Source: Candidatus Krumholzibacteriota bacterium
Lineage (GTDB): Bacteria; Krumholzibacteriota; Krumholzibacteriia; Krumholzibacteriales; Krumholzibacteriaceae
Assembly: GCA_016932415.1 (NCBI GenBank)
Contig: JAFGCX010000025.1
Coordinates: forward strand, 4,175 to 68,174
DNA: 64,000 bases
Reading direction: 5' to 3'
The translations under genes were made by a program, and so were the position numbers. The notes under the pieces were generated by a model. It was not told the origin of the DNA and ran no database searches. It worked only from the letters and a program-made list of their open reading frames with translations. Positions 28,392 through 32,487 of the stretch are shown piece by piece. Each line of letters begins with the position of its first letter. Within the stretch, counting starts at the first letter, position 1.

Positions 28392-29111
28392 CTAGTCGAA
28401 CGCCTGATCGGTCTTCCATTCTTTCCATACATTTCCGACCAGTTCCGGCCCCGGCTTCAAAGTTTTCTTCCCCGGTTTCCATCCAGATGGTGTAGCTTCC
28501 GTCCCTTTCGATTGTCTCACGAGCTGGAACGCCTGGATCTGCCGGATCGATTCATTGACGTTCCTTCCGACCGGAGGCGTCAATACTTCGTAACCCTGTA
28601 CTATTCCATCCGGATCTATGATGAACCTTCCCCTTGTCTCGACACCGGCATCCTCATCATAAATACCATAAACCCTGCCCACTTTTCCACCGGCGTCAGA
28701 GAGCATGGCGTAGGGGACTCCACCTTCGACCATCTTTGACAGCTCGTTATCATTCCACATCTTATGAACGAACATGCTGTCAACGCTCATCGAAAGGACT
28801 TCGACGCCGAGTTTCTGGAATTCAGGATACTTTTCAGCAACTGCTGAGATCTCGGTCGCTCAGACGAAGGTAAAATCACCGGGGTAGAAACATAGCACTA
28901 CCCATTTTCCCAGATAGTCTGATAATTTGACATTTATGAATTTACCCTTATGATATCCCGGCGCGGAAAAATCAGGGGCTTTCTTGCCGACTTGTATCAT
29001 ACTCTTGACCTCCTTTTTCTCGATGACCTTTTCAGGTGTCTCTTCGGCGGGAGGCTCACCTACCGGTCCTCCCGTAGGCCGGGCGCATCCGCCCTTTACT
29101 TCCTCTGCCAT
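28392..29111 (-). CDS. Selenocysteine-containing peroxiredoxin (AhpC/PrxU type), UGA read through
   Basis: One continuous frame with an internal TGA at 28860-28862. Upstream it reads [16 protein letters not shown] and downstream [14 protein letters not shown], then [17 protein letters not shown]. This is the AhpC/TSA peroxiredoxin sequence with TGA exactly where the peroxidatic Cys of TxxC stands. A 5-bp hairpin lies 12 bases after the TGA. I read it as selenocysteine, reducing peroxides in the cytoplasm. ATG 29000, with GGAGGT seven bases upstream, gives 202 residues with Sec at 47, the family's usual place; ATG 29111 adds 37 residues including a CARPTGG segment. No resolving Cys is visible in the C-terminus. 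Without a SelB pathway it would be a broken gene. Confidence 0.88.
28834..28847 (-). promoter_or_regulatory. Candidate bacterial SECIS hairpin
   Basis: Just after the in-frame TGA (28860-28862) the mRNA can form UCAGC(28847-28843)-AGUU-GCUGA(28838-28834). The 4-base loop has G at its second position and starts 18 bases after the UGA. Published rules for bacterial SECIS elements ask for a short stem, a small loop with G in the first two positions and a distance of about 16-37 bases. All are met, though the stem is short. Confidence 0.55.
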
Positions 29112-29970: not shown

Positions 29971-30582
29971 TCAGGCGCTAAGCTTCCTGGCTATCCTTGC
30001 GACATGCGCGCCCTGGAATCGGGCGCCGAGAATATCCGTCTCACAGGGCTTCCTGCTTCCATCCGAACCGGCGATCGTGGAGGCGCCGTAGGGTGAGCAG
30101 CCGATCACGCTGTCTGTCTTTGTCTGTTCCTGGAAAGCGTATGGAAGCCCCACAATCACCATCCCGTGATGCAGCAATGTTATATGGCAGGTCAGTATCG
30201 TCGATTCCTGACCGCCATGCTGCGTTCCAGAGCTTGTGATAACGCTGCCCGCTTTTCCGACGAGCGCTCCTTTTGCCCAGAGCGGACCTGTCGCGTCGAG
30301 GAATTGGCGCATCTGGCCGCACATATTCCCAAACCGCGTCGGCGTGCAAAAAATAACCGCGTCCGCTTCTCCCATCTCTTCAACCGTGCATATAGGAACA
30401 TCCGCCTGTGCTTTCTGCGCCTCTGCAGCTCCCATCTGGGCGATCAGATCATCGGACAGGGTCTCGGGCACGCGCCGGATGACTGATTCCACTCCTTCTA
30501 CCGATCCGGCTCCCTCGGCGGCTGCCTGCGCGAGCTTGTAAATGTGTCCATACATCGAATAGTACAGTACGAGTACTTTCAT
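29971..30582 (-). CDS. wrbA: WrbA-type NAD(P)H:quinone oxidoreductase
   Basis: 203 residues, the normal WrbA size. The FMN-binding flavodoxin fold starts MKVLVLYYSMYGHIYKLAQ and has the WrbA signatures FCTPTRFGNMCGQMRQFLDATG and SSGTQHGGQESTI. It reduces quinones by two electrons and so avoids semiquinones. AAAAGGAGGC lies before the ATG. It belongs to the redox gene group 28392-32487, all on the minus strand. Confidence 0.93.
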   Translation of the reverse strand: MKVLVLYYSMYGHIYKLAQAAAEGAGSVEGVESVIRRVPETLSDDLIAQMGAAEAQKAQADVPICTVEEMGEADAVIFCTPTRFGNMCGQMRQFLDATGPLWAKGALVGKAGSVITSSGTQHGGQESTILTCHITLLHHGMVIVGLPYAFQEQTKTDSVIGCSPYGASTIAGSDGSRKPCETDILGARFQGAHVARIARKLSA

Positions 30583-31551: not shown

Positions 31552-32487
31552 TCAGAACTTCCTTTTATATATATGGCAGTAGGGCTGTTTTTTGTTTCTG
31601 CTGTAATAATCCTGGTGATAATCTTCAGCTTCCCAGAATCTTCCCGCTGGAAGAACGCTTGTAACGACTTGATATCCTTTTTGTTTTAATATTTCTATTA
31701 ATTTCTCCGTGATTTTTTTCTCTTCTTCGGTGCGGTAAAAGACCGCCGAAAGATATTGCTCACCTATATCAGGACCCTGTCCATTGGCTTGCGTCGGATC
31801 ATGGATCTCGAAGAAAAACTTCGCGATCTCTTCATAATCCACGACTGATGGATCATAGATCACCTCCACCGCTTCAAGATGACCTGTGCCTCCTCCCGTC
31901 ACGTCGCGATATGTCGGATCGGCCAGAGATCCTCCCATATATCCTGAAGTGGCGGAGATGACCCCTTCCCTGCCCTCGAAAAGGTATTCCACTCCCCAGA
32001 AACACCCTCCCGCAAAATAAGCTTTTTCTCTTCTGGATACTTCTTCGCCCGGGACGAAGACAAGGGAAATGGAATTTACGCAATGCCTGACATTCCTCTC
32101 GGTGAGCATCTCTCCTTCAAAAACATGCCCGAGATGCGCTCCGCAACTGGCGCAGAGGATCTCGGTCCTTATCCCGTCGATGTCGATCTGCCTTCTGACC
32201 GCTCCGGCTATCTCATCATCGAAGCTCGGCCATCCGCAGGATGAGACAAACTTGTCGCTCGAGACGTAAAGAGGCGCGCCGCATCGTTTGCAGTGATAGA
32301 TTCCCTTTTCAAAAAATTCGTTGTACTTGCCGCTGAAAGGGGCTTCAGTCCCCTTATGCAGGATCACTCTTTCCTCTTCCTTGGAAAGCTTGTTGTAGTG
32401 TTCTTTATCCATTGTCCCCGCCTCCGCGTGAGAGATCAGGAATAGAACTGCACAAACTGTGACTGCCAGATTTTTATCTCTCCGCAT
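31552..32487 (-). CDS. Secreted MsrB-MsrA fusion methionine sulfoxide reductase
   Basis: 311 residues. A signal peptide (LAVTVCAVLFLISHAEA) precedes the MsrB domain, with zinc cysteines 66/69/112/115 and catalytic Cys136 in RHCVNSISL. The MsrA domain follows with GGCFWG (Cys162) and the GTGHLEAVEV motif. The domain order is B then A, the reverse of the PilB/MsrAB order. It repairs both sulfoxide epimers of oxidised methionine in envelope proteins. It lies 36 bases from the ZIP gene; the upstream gene is the porin-cytochrome at 32567. Confidence 0.93.
   Translation of the reverse strand: MRRDKNLAVTVCAVLFLISHAEAGTMDKEHYNKLSKEEERVILHKGTEAPFSGKYNEFFEKGIYHCKRCGAPLYVSSDKFVSSCGWPSFDDEIAGAVRRQIDIDGIRTEILCASCGAHLGHVFEGEMLTERNVRHCVNSISLVFVPGEEVSRREKAYFAGGCFWGVEYLFEGREGVISATSGYMGGSLADPTYRDVTGGGTGHLEAVEVIYDPSVVDYEEIAKFFFEIHDPTQANGQGPDIGEQYLSAVFYRTEEEKKITEKLIEILKQKGYQVVTSVLPAGRFWEAEDYHQDYYSRNKKQPYCHIYKRKF

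Follow-up and report, generated by a model that had tools for sequence, protein, structure and literature searches.

A selenocysteine peroxiredoxin of the PrxU family, with a possibly relocated resolving thiol, in a Krumholzibacteriota genome

The stretch of DNA analysed here (64,000 nucleotides, hereafter the window) belongs to a Candidatus Krumholzibacteriota bacterium and harbours, on its minus strand, a peroxiredoxin gene interrupted by one in-frame TGA, prxU (Table 1). Read through the TGA, the frame encodes 83 residues, the TGA as codon 84, and a further 155 residues before the TAG. An earlier note on this sequence had given the same boundaries (28392-29111) and read-through frame, which are correct; it left the minus strand unstated. 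It had also predicted that automated annotation would split the gene. Plain ORF calling does break it into pieces of 83 and 132 aa, but such a split is not inevitable, as the PrxU model of NCBI spans the Sec site. prxU shares its strand with genes for WrbA, an AOX-like di-iron protein, a methyltransferase and an MscS channel, and an MsrB-MsrA fusion is encoded further upstream.

Table 1. Features of the prxU locus and of the selenocysteine machinery in the host genome. Positions are those of the window unless a contig is named.
Feature	Position	Strand	Description and basis
prxU CDS	29111..28392	minus	239 aa; ATG 29111..29109; TAG 28394..28392; single in-frame TGA read as Sec; translation, profile matches, full-length homologs
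Sec84 UGA codon (peroxidatic residue, P77xxxT81xxU84)	28862..28860	minus	TGA in 110/110 homologs; invariant P77, T81, R160
Cys9 codon, conserved N-terminal motif, candidate resolving thiol	29087..29085	minus	Cys in 108/108 homologs reaching the position
Cys74 codon (LCFYPGDF), second candidate resolving or structural thiol	28892..28890	minus	Cys in 110/110 homologs
Thr207 codon (EATPSG), site of the resolving Cys in typical 2-Cys peroxiredoxins (EVCPAG)	28493..28491	minus	aligned to the canonical CR column
Bacterial SECIS hairpin	28849..28832	minus	core stem UCAGC/GCUGA 28847-28843 and 28838-28834; apical AGUU 28842-28839; wobble covariation, fold, published model
AOX-like di-iron protein, divergent, 225 aa	29219..29896	minus	107 nt upstream of prxU; 4/6 family members match Pfam AOX, best 7.6e-4; invariant E, ExxH, DExxH
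WrbA, NAD(P)H:quinone oxidoreductase	29971..30582	minus	TIGR01755, 290.8 bits
MsrB-MsrA fusion, methionine sulfoxide repair (Cys type)	31552..32487	minus	NF004042, 442.4 bits
tRNA-Sec gene	contig C36, final 87 bases (L006 1494-1580)		gene runs off the contig end
NifS-SelD fusion	L015 289-2556, contig C10 of the host genome (G000)	plus	755 aa; Cys at the SelD active site

The window member of the AOX-like family has no Pfam match of its own, and a single-sequence structure model of it reached a pLDDT of 39. The family alignment comprises the window protein and five relatives with 65-68% identity, all from one family of genomes. Co-transcription of this gene with prxU is possible. In another genome of the same genus, prxU and the AOX-like gene share a contig and a strand, with about 1.9 kb between them. 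A divergent AOX-like protein is encoded beside a peroxide-defence gene in a host that is a probable anaerobe. No conserved operon partner of prxU was found across the homolog loci, and the neighbourhood is not kept beyond the family. The neighbours vary from locus to locus, and among those recognised by eye in clustered ORFs are a Fur/PerR-like regulator, a flavodoxin, a catalase and a FAD-dependent oxidoreductase.

The read-through protein matches the NCBIfam equivalog model NF040737 (peroxi_PrxU) with 427.6 bits, against a curated cut-off of 270 bits. The match pairs residues 7-235 with positions 2-232 of the 233 in the model, so the N-terminal extension of the protein belongs to the family. 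The Pfam domain AhpC-TSA covers residues 41-172 and spans the TGA (4.8e-39), and the domain 1-cysPrx_C was matched at the C-terminus. The TGA stands at the position expected for the peroxidatic Cys of the PxxxTxxC motif. The relatives found in the PDB are typical 2-Cys peroxiredoxins, and their peroxidatic position is aligned opposite the TGA. Pro77, Thr81 and Arg160 are retained and are invariant in the homolog alignment. The structure predicted with AlphaFold, of moderate confidence (mean pLDDT 64), resembles Prx2 and AhpC. Judged from these sequence comparisons, the gene almost certainly encodes PrxU, a selenocysteine peroxiredoxin with the Prx1/AhpC fold in which Sec is inserted at the UGA. 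The earlier note had placed Sec at the peroxidatic position, at TGA 28860-28862, and both the full-length family match and the homologs described below bear this out.

A scan of genome contigs returned 281 candidate loci, the best 80 of which were read; they belong to Desulfobacterota, Myxococcota, Spirochaetota, Fibrobacterota, Calditrichota, Cloacimonadota, Acidobacteriota and others. The scan of 80 genomes of the host phylum gave 29 matches above the PrxU cut-off, that of the window included, and one fragment just below it. Each of these 29 matches has an in-frame TGA, and one has two. Among the 110 aligned sequences (the best 80 of the 281 contig loci and the own-phylum matches), which represent many phyla and nearly all have no further stop, the Sec84 codon is TGA throughout and Cys occurs at this position in none. 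The peptide patterns of the contig scan and the tblastn query, which carried Cys at the Sec84 site, gave no bias toward TGA. The same codon in 110 out of 110 homologs shows that the TGA of prxU is not due to chance. Within this sample the PrxU family appears to be obligately Sec-based, with no Cys version found. Were prxU a nonsense pseudogene, derived from a Cys peroxiredoxin by an ordinary stop mutation, its frame would be interrupted as well. However, the TGA is shared by all homologs, protein conservation extends to either side of it, and the hairpin that follows it covaries (see below). Conservation across phyla refutes the pseudogene reading, which is extremely improbable.

From the UGA onwards the RNA reads UGA-GCG-ACC-GAG-AUC-UCA-GCA-GUU-GCU-GAA. 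When the U of UGA is numbered 1, positions 16-20 pair with 25-29, and 21-24 are the apical bases. The published model of the bacterial SECIS describes a stem of 4-16 bp, a small apical loop with G in its first two positions, an N1/N2 flanking pair, a spacing of 16-37 nt and a minimum free energy of at most -7.5 kcal/mol (PMC13188914). The prxU hairpin has a 5-bp stem, a loop A-G-U-U in which A21-U24 alternates with G21-C24 among the homologs, and a spacing of 17 nt between the UGA and the apical loop, inside the published range. Its energy varies with the length folded: -6.4 kcal/mol for both 18 and 38 nt, slightly short of the -7.5 of the model, and -15.8 for a 64-nt stretch. Energies of the longer stretches do not stand out from those of shuffled sequences (z -1.0 at 64 nt and +0.13 at 48 nt). 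A search of the window with Rfam gave nothing at gathering scores, and near prxU just one weak spurious match.

Wobble positions are more informative. Pair 18-27 joins two wobble positions and is a standard pair in 110/110 sequences, with five pair types (Watson-Crick in 108/110). Pair 21-24 is Watson-Crick in 109/110, and pair 15-30 in 98/110, the window itself having C-A there. These are the top three for Watson-Crick pairing among 231 pairs of wobble columns, for which the median is 33. Compensatory substitutions in them arose independently many times. On the maximum-likelihood tree, pair 18-27 needs about 28 or more changes per side. Phylogenetically independent contrasts went in the same direction by 7.5 to 0 (p ~0.008), and the printed control columns were not significant. 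It is wobble covariation rather than energy which identifies the hairpin 3' of the UGA as a bacterial SECIS. The SECIS-like hairpin of the earlier note is present as UCAGC-AGUU-GCUGA at 28847..28834, its energy alone being unremarkable. The gene offers a clean example of SECIS covariation at wobble positions within a coding sequence.

The host genome, 3.11 Mb in 38 contigs and 95.5% complete, possesses selA (490 bits), selB (350 bits), a tRNA-Sec with UCA anticodon (53.8 bits with the covariance model, gathering score 47) and two selD genes, one for a Sec-type SelD and one for a NifS-SelD fusion. The separate SelD, of 351 aa, has an in-frame TGA of its own within the GUASK motif. All four genes of Sec decoding, selA, selB, selC and selD, are therefore present, and decoding of UGA as Sec by the host is supported by this gene content. 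The earlier note had held that the organism reads UGA as Sec and that a genome devoid of Sec machinery would refute this; the machinery was found, and the refutation fails. Truncation at the contig end hid the tRNA-Sec gene from ARAGORN, whereas the covariance model did detect it. A selC survey based solely on tRNA calling would count this genome as selC-negative in error. The NifS-SelD fusion is located about 6 kb from the separate Sec-containing SelD; only two prokaryotic fusions of this kind had been reported in 2015 (PMC4561486). A selA match was found in 78 of the 80 genomes examined of the host phylum, so Sec decoding is almost universal there, and prxU documents its use in this phylum.

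A UGA evidently translated within the prxU frame could also be an ordinary sense codon, if UGA were globally reassigned, to Trp or Gly for example. However, TGA is the terminator in six out of ten neighbouring genes checked and also ends many genes across the window, which means that UGA is used without global reassignment. The residue at the prxU TGA aligns to the catalytic Cys, unrelated phyla share the codon, and the genome holds the Sec genes. Global reassignment, refuted by TGA as terminator in the same window, has a vanishingly small probability. No TGA-interrupted gene other than prxU was found within the window, where the remaining in-frame continuations resembled ordinary gene boundaries or short non-gene stretches.

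With Sec at codon 84, a catalytic cycle can be proposed. SelB with Sec-tRNA(Sec) would bind the hairpin immediately downstream of the UGA, leading to insertion of Sec84, a step supported by homology, genome content and covariation. By analogy with established peroxiredoxin chemistry, Sec84, in its conserved Pro/Thr/Arg pocket, would reduce peroxide and be converted to a selenenic acid. Its resolution would most likely fall to Cys9, with Cys74 or an external thiol acting directly as less likely candidates; a thioredoxin-like partner would then reduce the selenenylsulfide. The resolving step is the weakest of the proposal. Physiologically, PrxU probably protects its host, a probable anaerobe, against peroxide; the redox genes for WrbA, the AOX-like protein and MsrBA are located nearby.

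The C-terminal resolving Cys that characterises typical 2-Cys peroxiredoxins is lacking in the window protein, which has Thr207 there, and Cys occurs at this position in 0/110 homologs. Cys9 and Cys74 are the only conserved Cys residues. Peroxiredoxins that keep the canonical C-terminal Cys have Phe or Leu at position 74; these include six other Sec proteins of the phylum (L133-L138) and seven of its Cys peroxiredoxins. Three further Sec proteins (L128-L130) lack the canonical residue; position 74 is Cys in all of them, and their N-terminal segment contains a Cys as well. Loss of the canonical Cys is coupled to the presence of Cys74 and an N-terminal Cys, and the resolving thiol thus seems relocated. 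That it has moved to Cys9 or Cys74 is put forward tentatively, at somewhat less than an even chance. Between the two, Cys9 is the most likely candidate, since the active site could be within reach of a flexible N-terminus. In the AlphaFold model, residues 1-35 are below pLDDT 50 and the N-terminus is near 31, values so low that the side-chain geometry of Cys9 and Cys74 cannot be judged and no distance backs Cys9.

PrxU might instead be of a 1-Sec type that needs no internal resolving thiol: an outside reductant such as thioredoxin, glutathione or a dithiol would act on the selenenic acid, and Cys9 and Cys74 would serve other roles. The missing canonical Cys in 110/110 homologs agrees with this, as do the 1-cysPrx_C domain called by Pfam and the location of Cys9 in a segment of very low prediction confidence that is likely flexible. 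In contrast, the invariant Cys9 (108/108) and Cys74 (110/110) track the loss of the canonical Cys, and NCBI names the family thioredoxin-dependent, which is a name and not a test. Overall, direct reduction by an external thiol is considered unlikely. The alternative of a relocated thiol would make PrxU a mechanistically distinct class of peroxiredoxin, combining a catalytic Sec with a resolving thiol moved to the N-terminal motif or to Cys74, and this classification shares the tentative standing of the relocation. No description of such a relocated thiol in PrxU was found in the open-access literature. If true, it would be a new catalytic layout for peroxiredoxins and a possible reason why the PrxU family seems not to revert to Cys.

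The window protein has 84-86% identity to homologs of Desulfobacterota (85% to those of Desulfobacula), compared with 77% to its same-genus relative, and the tree places it among Desulfobacterota. Transfer or replacement of the gene is possible, the support being not significant: a clade of the two same-genus proteins was not rejected by the AU test (p 0.064). Given this value and the partial synteny of the prxU locus within the genus, horizontal transfer is not claimed.

In the Sargasso Sea selenoproteome, Sec peroxiredoxins ranked second in abundance among the known families (PMC1088965); twelve were counted in a survey of 2006 (PMC1794560), and the NCBI databases contain many annotated selenoproteins (PMC13188914). 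Table 1 of a review from 2026 (PMC13188914), which cites Sohling et al. 2001, includes the TxxU type among the experimentally verified families. Since TxxU Sec-peroxiredoxins have been known experimentally since 2001, the window PrxU is a new member of an already known family, and no difference from the full-length family model NF040737 was found. Similar to the PrxU of Eubacterium acidaminophilum, it has a TxxU active site, the peroxiredoxin fold and a probably anaerobic host. In the clostridial protein, which is shorter, Sec is located near position 47, so the 37-residue N-terminal extension of the window protein may be missing from it.

Two other kinds of Sec peroxiredoxin were found in the phylum of the host. 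The proteins L128-L130, from three genomes, are apparently exported, with a signal-peptide-like start followed by a GxCG Cys. The proteins L133-L138 are a second type with TxxU encoded by TGA and a downstream hairpin, as in PrxU; the hairpin after their UGA is long (GCUGCUCU-GGC-AGAGCAGC). They differ from PrxU in that EGCPSK contains the canonical resolving Cys, position 74 is Phe and the N-terminal motif is absent. Typical 2-Cys peroxiredoxins (Prx1/AhpC; PDB 4fh8, 1qmv, 7kj1) share the fold and the PxxxTxx site with PrxU at 36-47% identity, but differ from it in having a peroxidatic Cys, a C-terminal resolving Cys and Phe at 74, and in lacking the N-terminal GCARPTGG segment.
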